Part shown: positions 4,521 through 23,319 of the stretch, piece by piece
How positions within the stretch are numbered: position 1 is the stretch's first letter
How the letters are laid out: every line of letters starts with the position of its first letter
Assembly (NCBI GenBank): GCA_005809105.1
Contig: SYLI01000095.1
Coordinates: 1 to 39,254 of the forward strand
DNA length: 39,254 nt
DNA from: Verrucomicrobiales bacterium
Lineage (GTDB): Bacteria; Verrucomicrobiota; Verrucomicrobiia; Limisphaerales; UBA1100
Reading direction: 5' to 3'
Made by a program: the position numbers and the translations under genes
The notes under the pieces: model-generated
Told to the model about the DNA's origin: nothing
Database searches by the model: none
Seen by the model: the letters and a program-made list of their open reading frames with translations, nothing else

Positions 4521-4775
4521 CTAGCGCGGGGCGCAGTGGCCCGCGCGGATTTTGCCTGCGCTCCCTTGGAGGAAATGCAGGGCCTTCTGATAGCTCCTGC
4601 GGTGCAGGTAATGAAGCAGGTCGGGCGCGGTCGACGGCGGCAGCTGTGCCGTCAACGTGTCCAGCCGCTGGAAGATTCCCAGCAGGTCGGGCTTGGGTTC
4701 GGCCGTTTTCACCCGGGCCGCGGCCGATTCCAACTCGAGCAAGGCTGCCAGCAAAGACTCTTCGGTCGCGCTCAC
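4521..4775 (-). CDS. Small helical protein of unknown function upstream of mnmE
   Basis: I do not recognise a named family. From a GTG at 4775 it encodes 84 residues, starting (M)SATEESLLAALLELESA and ending in KIRAGHCAPR. It is predicted to be helical and soluble, with no signal peptide. The segment DLLHYLHRRSYQKALHFL looks like a conserved core. An in-frame extension up to 4940 exists but would run into the start of the divergent kinase gene and has a less protein-like composition. It lies 32 bp upstream of mnmE on the same strand, so co-transcription is likely. Function is unknown. Confidence 0.6.
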   Translation of the reverse strand: MSATEESLLAALLELESAAARVKTAEPKPDLLGIFQRLDTLTAQLPPSTAPDLLHYLHRRSYQKALHFLQGSAGKIRAGHCAPR

Positions 4776-4858
4776 AGCCCAGTGATAAACCAAGGCGGGT
4801 GGAACACAAGTCCATTGACCTTGCCAAGCAATTCGCCCGCCGCCGATACTCCCCCGGG

Positions 4859-6649: not shown

Positions 6650-7608
6650 CGCCCGTGCCGCGCGACGAGCAGCCGGCTGCGCGCAGCCTCCAGCGCCATC
6701 CTGAAATCGTCGTAGGATCTGAACCGGTGGTCGGGGTTCTTCTCCATCCCCTTGCAGAGCGCGGTGGTCGTGTCCTTGGAGATGTCCTTCACAACCTTGT
6801 TGGGAGGGATGAGCGTGCCATTGACGTGCGCCCAGACGGTTTCCTCGGCGGTGGGTGCGTCAAAGGGAACCTGCCCGGTCACCGCGTGGTAGAGCGTGGC
6901 GGCGAGGCTGTACATGTCCGAGCGCCAGTCCTGCCACCCCTCGGAGACGCGCTCGGGCGCGATGTAAAAGGGCGTGCCCATCAACCCCTCGGCGTCGTCG
7001 CGCTTGCCTCCCATTTTCTTGGCGATGCCAAAGTCGGTCAGCTTGGGTTCGCCCTCGGTGTTGTAGAGGATGTTGCTGGGCTTGATGTCCAGATGCATCA
7101 GATCCTTCTGCCTCAGGACATCCAGCGCGGAGGAAATCTTGATGCCGACGTCGAGCACGTAGAGCTCGTCCACGCGCCCCTGCGATTCGATGCGCTGGTC
7201 CATGTCGCCCTGATCGGCCACCTCCATCGCCAGATACTTGCGCCCTTCCGACTCGTCGTAGTTATAGATGTGAATGATGTTCGTGTGATTGAGAGTGGCT
7301 TGGAAGCGCGCCTCGCGGTAGAAACCGGCCATCGCCTGGGGGTGCTGCGCGATGTTAGCCGCCATCATCTTCACGGCCACCTCGCGCTCCAGCACCGTGT
7401 CCCAGGCCCGGTACACCGTGGCCATGCCGCCCGAGCCGAGGACCGAGCGCAGTTCAAACTGGCGCAGGCGCACAGGCGCAATGACCGGATGCCGGCATTC
7501 GGTGCAGGGCACGGGCTGGAATTTCGCCAGATCCTGCGGAACCCAGTTGGGAGTGCGGCACTTGTCGCAGGGCACCACCTGCACCGGTCGTCTTGCTGCT
7601 TCTGACAT
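6646..7608 (-). CDS. Hanks-type Ser/Thr protein kinase with N-terminal zinc ribbon
   Basis: A 320-residue cytosolic kinase. Residues 14-38 hold two CxxC pairs (Cys14, 17, 35, 38), probably a zinc ribbon. The kinase domain follows: glycine loop GSGGMATVY (58-66), Lys80 in VAVK, Glu99, catalytic loop HLDIKPSN with Asp174, DFG at 192-194 and the activation end GTPFYIAPE. The Arg of the usual HRD motif is Leu, making it a non-RD kinase. Unlike many bacterial relatives it has no transmembrane segment or sensor domain after the kinase. ATG 7608 is preferred; a TTG 24 nt earlier is also in frame. Its substrate is unknown. Confidence 0.92.
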   Translation of the reverse strand: MSEAARRPVQVVPCDKCRTPNWVPQDLAKFQPVPCTECRHPVIAPVRLRQFELRSVLGSGGMATVYRAWDTVLEREVAVKMMAANIAQHPQAMAGFYREARFQATLNHTNIIHIYNYDESEGRKYLAMEVADQGDMDQRIESQGRVDELYVLDVGIKISSALDVLRQKDLMHLDIKPSNILYNTEGEPKLTDFGIAKKMGGKRDDAEGLMGTPFYIAPERVSEGWQDWRSDMYSLAATLYHAVTGQVPFDAPTAEETVWAHVNGTLIPPNKVVKDISKDTTTALCKGMEKNPDHRFRSYDDFRMALEAARSRLLVARHGR

Positions 7609-7696
7609 TTGGAGCCGAAAGCATTTCCTCAAACATCGGCAGGGTGCAACTGAAAACCTCCGGACGAAGGATGCGTCGCGCGCTCACCCTTGGGAT

Positions 7697-7723
7697 TTGA
7701 CGCGTTTGAGTTCGCCGTATAAA
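7697..7723 (+). promoter_or_regulatory. Possible sigma70-type promoter for the transporter gene
   Basis: TTGACG (7697-7702) and TATAAA (7718-7723) are separated by 15 bp, a little short but acceptable for a sigma70-type promoter. It lies in the 167-bp divergent region between the kinase gene and the transporter, 52 bp before the transporter ATG. No start site is known. Confidence 0.4.
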
Positions 7724-7775
7724 TCAGTCGGCGACGAAGAGGGAAAGTGCCCAAGGGCCCTCGCCATTGTTTTCC

Positions 7776-9119
7776 ATGGTTAGACGAGCTGCCATCTACC
7801 TCTTGCTGCTGACGGCCGTCGTGGCCCACGCGGGCCCAGTTACCGCGTCCGCCGTGCCCACGGTGGCATGGCCGGCCTGCGTGCCTTTTGTGGCGTTGCT
7901 TCTGATGATCGCGCTCGGGCCGCTTCTCTTTGGCGGGTGGTGGTCGCGGCATTACCCCAAGGTGGCCGTGGCACTCGCGGCCGTGACGCTCACCCACTAT
8001 CTCATTGGATTGCGCGCCGTCGACCGCGTGCTCCACACCGGCGCCGAGTACACGAGCTTCGTCTGCCTCATCGGTTCGCTCTTTGTCGTCAGCGGCGGCA
8101 TCCACATCGAAGTGCGGGGCGAGTCCACGCCGGGCCGCAACGTGCTCTTCCTGCTGATGGCCGCTCTCATCGCCAACGTGCTGGGCACCACCGGCGCCTC
8201 GATGCTGCTCATCCGTCCGTGGATCCGGATGAACCAGGGCCGCATCACCGCCCGCCACATTGTCTTCTTCATCTTCATCGTCTCCAACGTGGGCGGCGGG
8301 CTTACCCCCATTGGCGATCCGCCGCTCTTTCTGGGATACCTGCGCGGGGTGCCGTTCTGGTGGGTGATGCAGCAGTGCTGGCCGATGTGGCTCACGGCAC
8401 TGGCGATGCTGCTGGCGATATTCTACGTTCTGGACCGGCGCGACCATCTGCGGGCCCGCCGCCTGTCGCCCTGTCCGTCTCCCGACACTGCGGCAGGATG
8501 GCGTCTGGAAGGCGGCGTAAACCTCCTCTTCCTTGGCGTGATCCTCTTCGCAGTCTTCCTTCCACAGCCTCAATTTCTGCGCGAGGGATTGATGGTGGCC
8601 GCCGCCGCAGGCTCGTGGCTGGCAACGCGGCCGTCGATCCACCACGCCAACCAGTTCAGCTTTCATCCGGTCAAGGAAGTCGCCATCCTTTTCCTTGGGC
8701 TCTTTGCCACGATGATGCCAGCCCTTGATTGGCTGGGCGCCCACGCAGCCTCGCTGGGGGCGCCCACGCCCGGGATGTTTTACTGGGCTGCAGGCTCTCT
8801 GAGCAGCGTGCTGGACAATGCCCCGACGTACCTGTGCTTCTTCGAGGCGGCCGCGAGCTTGCATGCGTCAGGTGCGACCGATCCCGCTACGCTGATGGCC
8901 CTGCCCGAATTCACGCGGCTGCTCTCCGCCGTCAGTGTCGGCGCCGTCTTCTTTGGCGCCTGCACCTACATTGGCAACGGGCCCAATTTCATGGTCAAGG
9001 CCATCGCAGAGCAACACGGGGCGCCGATCCCCACCTTCCTAGGCTACGTCGCGGGCTACACACTGCCGATCCTGCTGCCGGTGCTGACGGCGGTGTGGTG
9101 GATTTTCTTTCGACGCTAG
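7776..9119 (+). CDS. Na+/H+ antiporter or citrate-type membrane transporter (ion transporter superfamily)
   Basis: A 447-residue inner-membrane protein with roughly 11-12 hydrophobic segments; the first (AAIYLLLLTAVVAHA) resembles a signal sequence. Two family features are visible in mirrored halves: GGGLTPIGDPPLFLGYLRG near residue 175, and LSSVLDNAPTYLCF followed by TYIGNGPNFMVKAIAEQ near the end. These resemble NhaD/CitMHS-like carriers annotated as sodium:proton antiporters or putative citrate transporters in related bacteria. The substrate cannot be read from the sequence. ATG 7776 is preferred over a TTG 9 nt upstream. waaA starts 10 nt after its stop, so the two probably share a transcript. 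Confidence 0.85.
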   Translation: MVRRAAIYLLLLTAVVAHAGPVTASAVPTVAWPACVPFVALLLMIALGPLLFGGWWSRHYPKVAVALAAVTLTHYLIGLRAVDRVLHTGAEYTSFVCLIGSLFVVSGGIHIEVRGESTPGRNVLFLLMAALIANVLGTTGASMLLIRPWIRMNQGRITARHIVFFIFIVSNVGGGLTPIGDPPLFLGYLRGVPFWWVMQQCWPMWLTALAMLLAIFYVLDRRDHLRARRLSPCPSPDTAAGWRLEGGVNLLFLGVILFAVFLPQPQFLREGLMVAAAAGSWLATRPSIHHANQFSFHPVKEVAILFLGLFATMMPALDWLGAHAASLGAPTPGMFYWAAGSLSSVLDNAPTYLCFFEAAASLHASGATDPATLMALPEFTRLLSAVSVGAVFFGACTYIGNGPNFMVKAIAEQHGAPIPTFLGYVAGYTLPILLPVLTAVWWIFFRR

Positions 9120-19744: not shown

Positions 19745-20272
19745 ATGAAACGACTGCTAATCGTGATGGCCGGCGCGCTTTTGGCGGTGTCCGTGCAGGC
19801 GCAGGTGTTCGGACCTTCCGGGCGCGTGGCGCAGCCGGTGTTCCGTGCCACGGCTCCGCAGCCGGGCTCCTCCCAAACTCCCGTTTACGGTGCCACCACC
19901 ACGGTGGTGGGCGCGGCCGTGGGGGGCGTCTTGGGTAGCCGCAGCAACCGCTCTGGCGAAGGCGCGGCATTGGGGGGCGCACTGGGCATGGTGTTGGGGC
20001 AGATGATGGATCAGCGAGCGCAATCTCGTGCAGCAAGGCAGCAAGCCCAGGGTGAAGCTGCAGCGCCGATCGTCGTTGGCGCGGCAGGCGTTCCGCAGGC
20101 ATCGGCGCCGGAGTTGCCGCCGCCCCCAGCCGGATCTTTCCCCGCCGGGAGCATCCCTGCCATCGACCCCAGCACCGGGCTGCCTTTGCCCGGGACTACT
20201 TCCGCGGGGGGATCGCTTTTGCGCCCCGCGAGCCGTCCCTTGCAGCCGGCGAATAGACTGTTCGGCAGATAG
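19745..20272 (+). CDS. Exported glycine-zipper protein
   Basis: 175 residues with a clear signal peptide (MKRLLIVMAGALLAVSVQA, cleavage before the next Gln). Residues ~53-90 are a glycine zipper (VVGAAVGGVLG, then EGAALGGALGMVLGQMM), a membrane-inserting hairpin found in outer-membrane proteins and lipoproteins. The rest is Gln/Arg- then Pro/Ala/Gly-rich, with an IDPSTGLP motif near residue 140 that recurs in the lipoprotein at 22516. No Shine-Dalgarno is apparent at the ATG. It is the first gene of an exported-protein cluster. Function is unknown; an envelope structural or anchoring role is inferred. Confidence 0.75.
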   Translation: MKRLLIVMAGALLAVSVQAQVFGPSGRVAQPVFRATAPQPGSSQTPVYGATTTVVGAAVGGVLGSRSNRSGEGAALGGALGMVLGQMMDQRAQSRAARQQAQGEAAAPIVVGAAGVPQASAPELPPPPAGSFPAGSIPAIDPSTGLPLPGTTSAGGSLLRPASRPLQPANRLFGR

Positions 20273-20303
20273 AATCTCTGCCATAGTCGGTGCCCTTTCG
20301 TGA

Positions 20304-20309
20304 AAGGAG
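20304..20309 (+). promoter_or_regulatory. Ribosome-binding site of the LpoB-like gene
   Basis: AAGGAG lies 5 nt before the ATG at 20315, which settles the start over an in-frame GTG at 20300. Confidence 0.8.
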
Positions 20310-20314
20310 CGATT

Positions 20315-20932
20315 ATGAGAGTCCATGAATTCATCGTGGCGTCCGTGACCCTGTTCATGGGAAGCGGCTGCCTGAGCATCAACGACCCCACCTCCACCAA
20401 CGGGGTGACCCAGATGCGGCCCGACGAGCGCGGCTTTGTGGCGGGCTTGGGGATTGAGTCTCAAGACCTCGTGGTGGTGGCAGAGAAAATGGCGCGCGGG
20501 ATGCTCGGGGTGGCGCCCATCGCGCAGGCCAAAGGCAAACCCAACATCGTGCTGGAGCCGGTGGTCAACAAGACGCGCTTTAACATCGACAAGGAGATTT
20601 TCCTGACACGGATTCGCGTGGCCCTAAACGACAAGGCGCAGGGCCGGGTGAATTTCCTGGCCCGGCAGCGCATTGACGCGCTGGAGCGTGAGCGCAACCT
20701 CAAGCAGGGCGGCCAGGTGACCGGAGGAGGGAGCGCGCAGGCCAATGAATTCAAGGGCGCCGATTTCATCCTGACCGGAACGCTCGAGAGCATCTCCAGC
20801 CGTGGGAAGGCCGGAGCAAGCGATTACATCCTCTACACGTTCCAACTGCTCGACCCGCGCACCAGCGACATTGTTTGGGAGAGTTTTTACGAGATCAAGA
20901 AACAGGGCCGGGACGACGTCACCTACCAGTAG
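20315..20932 (+). CDS. LpoB-like penicillin-binding protein activator lipoprotein
   Basis: 205 residues. The signal sequence ends in a lipobox (FMGSGC), so it is probably an outer-membrane lipoprotein. After a linker the domain reads SQDLVVVAEKMARGML, NIVLEPVVNKTRFNIDKEIFLTRIRVALN, ADFILTGTLESISS and YTFQLLDPRTSDIVWESFYEIKKQ, matching the LpoB/CsgG-like fold. In E. coli LpoB reaches through peptidoglycan to switch on PBP1b. The same role here is inferred; the PBP1b docking domain may be absent. The next two genes resemble COG3014 and YcfL, which often accompany LpoB. Confidence 0.85.
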   Translation: MRVHEFIVASVTLFMGSGCLSINDPTSTNGVTQMRPDERGFVAGLGIESQDLVVVAEKMARGMLGVAPIAQAKGKPNIVLEPVVNKTRFNIDKEIFLTRIRVALNDKAQGRVNFLARQRIDALERERNLKQGGQVTGGGSAQANEFKGADFILTGTLESISSRGKAGASDYILYTFQLLDPRTSDIVWESFYEIKKQGRDDVTYQ

Positions 20933-20945
20933 CCAACCCCGCGCC

Positions 20946-22112
20946 ATGAATTGCCGTGCGTCTTGCATGCTGCTGCCGCTTCTCGCGATGGCGGCTTGCC
21001 TAGCGCCCGTGGCGCAACGCCCTCCGCAGCAGCGCCAGGAGCCTCAAGTAGACTTGGTGGCCGAAGGGCACCTCATCATCGCTGCCGCGCCGGCCAAGGA
21101 TAAAAACCTCTGGGGCTATCAGGTCGCGCTCTTGGCCATGAAACAAGGGCGATACTCTGAAGCGCGTGAACTCTGGGATCGCCATCTGCCGCCCGCCGGC
21201 GCGCTGTTAAAGGGCGGTGCGAGTGCGCAGCGCGCTCGCAGCTTGTTCCAGCCGGAGGAGGCGAAGATCTTCTTTGGCGAACCCCACGAGCGCACGCTGG
21301 CGTGGTTTTATCGCGGGGTATTGCATTGGATGGACGGTGAGCCGGACAATGCGCGCGCTTGCTTCCGCACGGCGCAGCTTCTCGACCAGTCCGACGAGAG
21401 CGCCCGGCAGGGAGATTGGGTGCTGCTGGATTATCTTGATGGGTTTCTCACCGCAAGACAGGGAGGCGATGGCAGCGACAAATTGCGGCGTGCGCGTGCC
21501 CACGCGCCGGGCGGCGCTTCGCCGACATTGCCCGATTATGACACCTCGGCCAACGTCATGGTGGTGCTGCAATTGGGCTTCGGGCCGCTCAAACGCGCCG
21601 AGGGCCGCCAAGGTGAGACACTGAAGTGGTCGGGAGGCCACTCCACCGCGAAGGCTGCCTTGGTGCGCAGCGGGCGCCAGACGGTGCGGGCTCCTGCGCT
21701 TGACGATGTGAGCTTCCAAGCGGCCACACGCGGCGCGCGGAGGATGGACGCACTACTGGCGCAGAAGGCGAACGTGAAACAAGCGACCGACACCGTGGGA
21801 GACCTCGGACTGGTTCCGGGGCTCATTCTGGCGCAGTCGGAGGGCACGCGCGCCGCCGGGCAGGGGCTATTGGTTGCGGCCGTGGCGGGAAAGTCGGTGG
21901 GGGGATCCGTCCAGCCGCGCGCCGACACGCGCACATGGAACAACCTGCCGCAGCATCTGGCATTTGCCGCGTTGCGGCTGCCACCCGGTCGCCATCGTCT
22001 GAGCGTAGACTTCCTCGATGGTGAGGGAAACGCGCTGCCCGCGCGGTGGCGCGAGCTGGAGGTGGACGTGAAGCCGCGCGGCGACACGGTGTTGTTTGTT
22101 GCCGATCCATAA
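20946..22112 (+). CDS. COG3014-like tetratricopeptide lipoprotein
   Basis: 388 residues with a lipoprotein signal (LLAMAAC). The N-terminal half contains helical repeat-like stretches (LLAMKQGRYSEARELWDRHL; GVLHWMDGEPDNARACFRTAQLL), consistent with tetratricopeptides. The middle has the family's VMVVLQLGFGPLKR, and the end is beta-rich (HRLSVDFLDGEGN, EVDVKPRGDTVLFV). It resembles the uncharacterised COG3014 lipoproteins encoded beside lpoB and ycfL in other Gram-negatives. It begins 13 bp after the LpoB-like stop and ends 4 bp before the YcfL-like gene, so it is part of one transcript. Its biochemical role is unknown. Confidence 0.8.
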   Translation: MNCRASCMLLPLLAMAACLAPVAQRPPQQRQEPQVDLVAEGHLIIAAAPAKDKNLWGYQVALLAMKQGRYSEARELWDRHLPPAGALLKGGASAQRARSLFQPEEAKIFFGEPHERTLAWFYRGVLHWMDGEPDNARACFRTAQLLDQSDESARQGDWVLLDYLDGFLTARQGGDGSDKLRRARAHAPGGASPTLPDYDTSANVMVVLQLGFGPLKRAEGRQGETLKWSGGHSTAKAALVRSGRQTVRAPALDDVSFQAATRGARRMDALLAQKANVKQATDTVGDLGLVPGLILAQSEGTRAAGQGLLVAAVAGKSVGGSVQPRADTRTWNNLPQHLAFAALRLPPGRHRLSVDFLDGEGNALPARWRELEVDVKPRGDTVLFVADP

Positions 22113-22116
22113 AGCC

Positions 22117-22497
22117 ATGAAGACTCCGTTGCTTTTGCTTGTCACCGCACTTTGCGCGGCCGCGTGCCTCTCACCCATGGGGCCGGCTCATGGTGCCCAC
22201 GGAAAGTTCGTGGCCTTGGGCGATCTGGCCGCCAGTGCCGTGGGATGTGTGGCGCTGCAGGAGAATGAGCTGTCGGACGGGCGGCTTTCGGTGCGTGCGC
22301 AGCTGGTCAACCGCACCGCGCAACGCATCCAGGTGCAGGTCAATTGCGTGTTTAAGGATGCGCAGGGATTTGGCACCGGCGACGAGACACCCTTTGAATC
22401 GCTCTTTCTGGACGAGGGTGCGCAACAAACCGTGCCCTTCACTTCACTGAACAACAAGGCCAAGTCGTACACGGTGCAGGTTCGGTTGCAGCGTTAA
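22117..22497 (+). CDS. YcfL-like lipoprotein (DUF1425)
   Basis: 126 residues with a lipoprotein signal (ALCAAAC). The mature part is a single beta-sandwich-like domain: GRLSVRAQLVNRTAQRIQVQVNCVFKD, then FLDEGAQQTVPFTSLN, as in YcfL/DUF1425 proteins. In E. coli ycfL lies beside lpoB, and the same association is kept here. Its function is unknown. The ATG follows the previous stop by 4 bp. Confidence 0.82.
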   Translation: MKTPLLLLVTALCAAACLSPMGPAHGAHGKFVALGDLAASAVGCVALQENELSDGRLSVRAQLVNRTAQRIQVQVNCVFKDAQGFGTGDETPFESLFLDEGAQQTVPFTSLNNKAKSYTVQVRLQR

Positions 22498-22515
22498 AAT
22501 CCAAGGGAGGCTCCA

Positions 22516-23319
22516 ATGAAATCAACACAAATGGCGTGGTGCTGCATGGCGCTGGTGGCGTGTGCCGGGCCTGCGGTCTTCCCGCCCGCAGCAGATCGCG
22601 GCGCGATTCCCATCCACCGGAACCGGGAGAAACCTTCCGCGCAAGTGTTCCAATATGAAACGGCGCCTCCCGCGGCGCTGGCGCAACTCTTCACGCCGGC
22701 GCAGGCGCAAGCCATCATCGAGCAATTCAAGGGGGCGTACGTCCGGTTGGGCGCGCCGCGAATGGATGTGCGAGTAAACCTGCCGCCAGGAGCCGCAACG
22801 GCACTGCCCGGCGTCATCGGGCCTTCCATCGACCCCAACACCGGCCTTCCCGCTCAGGCGCCGGCCGCGGTGCCGGCAACGACGCCAGCAAATGTGGCGG
22901 CGTCGCCAGCGGGAACGCCCGCGGCCTTGCCCCGCAATGCTGACACCGGCCCGCTGGCGGACCGGCAGACACGCCGCGATGTGGAGCGGCTCTTTGGCCG
23001 GCCGCTGCGGCAGGCGGGCGTCAAGCTGGTGGATCCGGATCTGGTGAATCCCCCGGAGGTGACGCTGGAGGTGTTGATTTCTGAGCGCGCGATGACGATC
23101 CGTGGCATCGGGGGCGACCAGTCCCTTGCCGTGCCGGACGTTCAGGTGACGGCGGTGCGCGTGGCCGACGGACGCATTCTGGGACAGGCCACCGTGCTGG
23201 ACTTGTTTCCCAAGGCCGGGCAGGCCGCTGCGGGGCTTCGCCGATTTGACGTGAGGGCTCTGGCAGAAGCCACGGCGCTCGCACTCATGAAGGACATGGC
23301 CCGCACCCCGGTGCCGTAA
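22516..23319 (+). CDS. Exported lipoprotein of unknown function, last gene of the LpoB-like cluster
   Basis: 267 residues. The lipoprotein signal ends in LVAC (Cys16). A short N-terminal domain precedes a Pro/Ala-rich linker that contains IDPNTGLP (near residue 105), the same motif as in the glycine-zipper protein of this cluster. The C-terminal domain (VTLEVLISERAM, VPDVQVTAVRVADGRILGQATVLDLFP, ALAEATALALMKDM) resembles the NTF/CsgG-like folds of LpoB proteins, though I cannot name a family. AAGGGAGG 6 nt before the ATG is a strong ribosome-binding site. Confidence 0.75.
   Translation: MKSTQMAWCCMALVACAGPAVFPPAADRGAIPIHRNREKPSAQVFQYETAPPAALAQLFTPAQAQAIIEQFKGAYVRLGAPRMDVRVNLPPGAATALPGVIGPSIDPNTGLPAQAPAAVPATTPANVAASPAGTPAALPRNADTGPLADRQTRRDVERLFGRPLRQAGVKLVDPDLVNPPEVTLEVLISERAMTIRGIGGDQSLAVPDVQVTAVRVADGRILGQATVLDLFPKAGQAAAGLRRFDVRALAEATALALMKDMARTPVP

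Follow-up and report, generated by a model that had tools for sequence, protein, structure and literature searches.

The window analysed here comprises 39,254 nucleotides of a Verrucomicrobiales genome (3.0 Mb, 96% complete), with Verrucomicrobiota MAGs labelled Pedosphaera, Verrucomicrobiales, Limisphaerales and Opitutaceae as the nearest named relatives. At positions 19745-23319, five consecutive open reading frames, g1 to g5, lie on the plus strand, and export signals were recognised in the translations of all of them. They are read from one strand and separated by short gaps of 4-42 nt (42, 13, 4 and 18 nt in the order g1 to g5), a spacing as in an operon. The genes hisF and ubiE, both on the minus strand, flank the set on one side and the other, the convergent ubiE lying 19 nt beyond the end of g5; in the window's family the neighbours of the operon are hisF, ubiE and topB. 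A search of the window against Rfam gave 0 matches, and no sigma-70-like promoter was found when one was looked for. The first-pass annotation had described five consecutive exported proteins in one direction, and this description is borne out by the reading frames, the export signals, the Pfam matches and the kept gene order presented below.

The five gene products

The first gene, g1 (19745..20272, +), encodes an exported glycine-zipper protein of 175 aa that passed the cut-off of PF05433 (1e-7; 32.2 bits, cut-off 24.2). It carries a signal peptide with no lipobox, and is thus not a lipoprotein. Its C-terminal tail reads ..PANRLFGR, with the codons for A-N-R-L-F-G-R at 20249..20269 (+). In Verrucomicrobiota the body of g1 is variable, but almost every copy recovered with g5 ends in N-x-LFGR. 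The string N-x-LFGR-stop is rare elsewhere in relatives and occurs once in the host genome, at g1, for which reason a role of LFGR as a general sorting tag was rejected.

The next three genes encode lipoproteins. The product of g2 (20315..20932, +) is an LpoB/CsgG-like protein of 205 aa with a short conserved tether. That of g3 (20946..22112, +; 388 aa) is a TPR protein, which we take to be of the COG3014 type as proposed earlier; it matches TPR_2 (1e-8), a domain found in 32 of 33 relatives. The AlphaFold2 model of g3 (pLDDT 85.9) has a helical N-terminal half and a beta-rich C-terminal part, and through Foldseek it was matched to peptide-binding TPR domains, for example that of CHIP. TPR domains often bind C-terminal peptides. 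The product of g4 (22117..22497, +; 126 aa) is of the DUF1425/YcfL type and passed the cut-off of PF07233 (2.8e-7; 30.8 bits, cut-off 28.3). The earlier lipoprotein assignments hold for g2 to g4 in most relatives and for g5 in the window's family, where a lipobox is present; elsewhere g5 mostly bears a plain signal peptide.

The last gene, g5 (22516..23319, +), encodes an exported alpha/beta protein of 267 aa that matched nothing in Pfam or NCBIfam, with no family common to its 58 relatives. Sequence searches of solved structures with g2 to g5 likewise gave nothing relevant. The AlphaFold2 model of g5 has a mean pLDDT of 76.8, with a structured core mostly above 90. The best Foldseek match was LptE, a weak one (E=2.6e-3, prob 1.00, TM 0.42 by target length), and further weak likenesses, with E-values around 1e-3 and TM 0.42-0.48 by target length, were to PelC, CsgG, GNA1162 and DUF330 lipoproteins. 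The model appears to share the alpha/beta layout of these periplasmic outer-membrane lipoprotein folds, but g5 differs from the CsgG/PelC/LptE group in matching no sequence family, in a long variable insert between the first strand and the second helix, and in an ERLFGR motif. This motif lies in the stretch ERLFGRPLR (residues 157-165, codons 22984..23010, +), of which E157, L159, F160, G161, R162 and R165 are invariant across 58 Verrucomicrobiota sequences. A profile comparison between g5 and g2 was not significant (E=0.045, prob 1.2), and sequence homology of the two was rejected.

LpoB likeness of g2 and class A penicillin-binding proteins

The set had been proposed to form one envelope complex controlling peptidoglycan synthesis, and in the corresponding reading g2 would be a true LpoB that stimulates a class A PBP by way of a docking domain of the UB2H kind. 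The LpoB domain of g2 does match PF13036 well above its gathering cut-off (1.5e-18; 67.6 bits, cut-off 22.3) and aligns to residues 78-210 of E. coli LpoB. Moreover, lpoB adjoins ycfL in E. coli, so that LpoB-domain and DUF1425 lipoproteins are encoded side by side in both cases, and the host genome encodes a PBP1C. However, against the LpoB equivalog model TIGR02722, g2 scored 53.4 bits, far below the cut-off of 110.55, while other loci in the host's order exceeded it with 130.8 and 129.5 bits. The tether also differs from the long, flexible one expected of an LpoB. The lipid anchor of E. coli LpoB is Cys20 and its domain starts at residue 78, whereas in g2 the predicted lipid-bearing residue is Cys19 and the domain starts at residue 51; the resulting tether, about 26 aa shorter, is conserved in sequence in the alignment.

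The search for an enzymatic partner points the same way. No UB2H match was obtained in the host genome (96% complete), and its sole GT51 protein, hence its only class A PBP, is a PBP1C by TIGR02073 (526.7 bits, cut-off 494.2) lacking UB2H. PBP1C was also the best match for all nine further GT51 proteins taken from relatives. In 8 of 19 genomes that carry the locus and are at least 90% complete, no GT51 was found (G004, G023, G025, G027, G029, G030, G036 and G039), and these eight come from 8 families. MAG incompleteness may hide single genes, but it would hardly hide this one in all 8 families, and parts of the PVC group have been reported to lack aPBPs (PMC8406291). Typas and others described LpoB and UB2H as restricted to enterobacteria at the cut-offs of that study (Typas, 2010; PMC3060616), which also argues against a true LpoB here.

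Compared with E. coli lpoB-ycfL, the locus therefore combines a g2 below the equivalog cut-off and a short tether with three extra genes, in a host that lacks UB2H and PBP1A/1B. Because many locus-bearing genomes lack such an enzyme, a role of the operon as a switch for PBP1-type cell-wall synthases is unlikely, and PBP1 activation was rejected on the absence of UB2H, the presence of PBP1C only and the many genomes with no GT51 found. That g2 is a true LpoB governing peptidoglycan synthesis appears very improbable, and the part of the earlier proposal that invoked a PBP1-type partner and control through it is not borne out. Since the operon is also kept in genomes in which no class A PBP was found, "LpoB" genes of this kind should not be taken for activators of PBP1B; this sets the widespread "LpoB" annotation apart from PBP activation.

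A second, divergent LpoB cluster was observed in the host's order (L191, L195, L196, L198, L199 and L200). In it, a g3-like gene precedes LpoB where both were seen, and the LpoB proteins of L191 and L199 pass the equivalog cut-off.

Gene order within and beyond Verrucomicrobiota

Conservation of the order was a check set beforehand. By using a g5 profile, 80 related loci were collected, and the order g1-g2-g3-g4-g5 is kept in 61 of them; since this profile served as the bait, the rate of g5 absence is not readable from this set. Among the loci outside the 61, one has a second glycine-zipper match and seven have g3 behind g5, and the remaining ones are cut by contig ends or have no g1. Overall, g1 lies upstream of g2 in 68 of the 80. 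A g5-independent sample was obtained by searching 144 genomes of the host's order with g2, of which 115 gave a match, about 90 being of the window's locus type; the trio g2-g4 was present in every one of the 80 such loci that were tabulated from that search. In almost all genomes of the window's family, the five genes have hisF on one side and ubiE on the other. The kept order indicates that the five-gene set is not due to chance, and g1 to g5 form a conserved unit whose products plausibly assemble into a single envelope complex. To this extent the earlier proposal of a single complex stands, in contrast to PBP1-linked control.

Seven Opitutia-type loci (L065, L067, L085, L089, L090, L091 and L094) show a permuted order, g2-g4-g5-g3, with g1 in front in six. 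In L043 (genome G016), at 7014-8072, g1 adjoins g5 and g2-g4 are missing; with N present in this stretch and a genome completeness of 71%, an assembly effect may be responsible.

The order might be only an old synteny of unrelated envelope genes, with g5 and the g1 tail lost in the same lineages and never interacting. The flanking hisF and ubiE are indeed partly conserved as well. However, Opitutia loci keep the order although hisF and ubiE are not neighbours there, and the order g2-g3-g4-g5 recurs in Pseudomonadota. This recurrence was found by tblastn of g3 against plasmids, which revealed two loci (NZ_CP117027 and NC_017507). On pSZ.B2R2_2 of Sphingomonas hankookensis the order is a CsgG/HfaB-type gene, a TPR gene, a 160-aa gene and a 279-aa gene; on pHP-187 of Marinobacter adhaerens it is LpoB-type, TPR, YcfL and a 272-aa gene, the record origin splitting the cluster. 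The LpoB-like proteins of both plasmids match g2 over nearly the full length, including the conserved tether (E 5.8e-21 and 8e-30). The g5 profile matched the fourth protein of each, P0006 with E=1e-6 and P0007 with E=8e-4 (prob 24), the latter being weak alone and accepted as g5-like because of its position in the cluster. The plasmid clusters thus share with g2-g5 the succession of LpoB-like, TPR, YcfL-position and g5-like genes, but differ in that no glycine-zipper g1 was seen in them and that their g5-like proteins have no LFGR; ERLFGR is absent from both P0006 and P0007.

From the plasmid order and the profile matches, it follows that g5 regularly occupies the fourth place in a module found in more than one phylum, which gives this unnamed family a place. 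Of the glycine-zipper and last genes, both described earlier as additions, only g1 retains that status, as a clade-specific one. Within the phylum, g5 is not universal, as its profile matched 10 of 276 good genomes, mostly of one family, with at most 8 candidates scored per genome. The library of papers searched contained none on the Sphingomonas and Marinobacter four-gene clusters, whose genes are mostly annotated as hypothetical, and none that mentions LpoB together with either COG3014 or DUF1425, or CsgG together with YcfL.

An outer-membrane export or assembly apparatus was also considered, in the manner of CsgG (curli) or PelC (Pel polysaccharide), in which rings of g2 and g5 would pass or anchor a surface product. 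The likeness of the g5 model to PelC, CsgG and GNA1162 is in keeping with it, and so are a marginal match of g2 to CsgG (PF03783) and the position of the Marinobacter plasmid copy beside the Flp pilus gene cpaB. Nevertheless, the CsgG match covers 46 residues only and stays under the cut-off (19.8 vs 20.8 bits), the Foldseek matches are weak, and in the window's family no dedicated substrate gene stands beside the locus, the neighbours being hisF, ubiE and topB. Such an apparatus is, on balance, unlikely.

Coupling of the g1 tail to g5 and a proposed complex

Of 75 loci of the host's order with enough flank, 38 have both the tail and g5, 33 have neither, 4 have g5 only and none has the tail only, so that g5 is missing in 33 of the 37 loci lacking the tail. 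The Fisher test on this table gives p=3e-17 with relatedness ignored. On a tree of g2+g3, 12-13 changes were counted for the tail and 11 for g5. Among 7 independent pairs, tail and g5 differ in the same sense in about 6 and in the opposite sense in 0 (sign test, p ~0.03). The tree-based test is the fair one, as the Fisher p-values ignore relatedness, and its support for the link between tail and g5 is modest. In eight loci of the order the glycine zipper is kept with another tail, mostly ..PDAPRVPDAPxF (..DLRVGR in L293), and all eight lack g5. Among glycine-zipper loci, the tree shows no more than two changes of the tail. The sister loci L270 and L293 differ in that one of them has lost g5 together with the tail and kept the glycine zipper. 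These data bear on the reading of the order as mere synteny: g1 and g5 stand at opposite ends, so a single deletion would take g2-g4 too, and the zipper persists while the tail alone changes. Together with the recurrence in Opitutia and Pseudomonadota, this makes unconnected loss in the same lineages quite improbable, more so than the export apparatus.

The gene g5 is found with no g1 tail in two genera (L239/L246 and L047/L283) and in the Opitutaceae locus L065, and it therefore does not need g1. Where g1 is absent and g5 is kept, the ERLFGR motif of g5 is degenerate in L047 and kept in L065 and in L239/L246 (as L083, the same record type). The LFGR letters common to g1 and g5 may be a coincidence.

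The operon product is probably an outer-membrane protein complex. In the proposed arrangement, g2 to g5 would form a complex anchored to the outer membrane on its periplasmic side. Its core would consist of the lipoproteins g2 (LpoB/CsgG-like), g3 (a TPR scaffold) and g4 (small, DUF1425), with g5 as a further exported domain whose fold would be of the LptE/PelC/CsgG type; the four-gene module behind this core is common to Verrucomicrobiota and some Pseudomonadota. To it, Verrucomicrobiota would add the exported g1, probably inserted into a membrane through its glycine zipper and docking through the C-terminal N-x-LFGR tail, either on g5 or on a surface, such as the g3 TPR, that the ERLFGR helix of g5 would also use. 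Its role would lie in linking or organising the envelope and not in the activation of a class A PBP. Observed directly are the conserved order, the signals for export, the association of the tail with g5 and a weak likeness of the g5 fold. We infer the complex, the docking of g1 by its tail, the membrane insertion and the function alike from sequences and models, and hold this outer-membrane lipoprotein complex at about even confidence. Its fuller form, with four ancient subunits in an undescribed outer-membrane complex, tied in Verrucomicrobiota to a glycine-zipper protein by an LFGR peptide (bound by g5 or competing with the ERLFGR helix), in bacteria with PBP1C alone or no class A PBP, is put forward more tentatively and with some doubt. 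The locus offers an example in which the occurrence of a short peptide tail follows that of another gene.

Some minor features of g1 and g5 were also recorded. A different conserved tail, PDAPxVPDAPxF or a near variant of it, was seen in the glycine-zipper proteins of L260, L262, L264, L267, L272, L274, L275 and L197, none with g5. In L049, at about 4690-4798, a 36-residue reading frame before g2 retains only the g1 tail (..INNNYYGGSRDMAEANRLFGR). In the window's family, a linker motif IDPxTGLP is common to g1 (20160-20195) and g5 (22820-22860), and that of g5 aligns with LVDxxSGL of other families.
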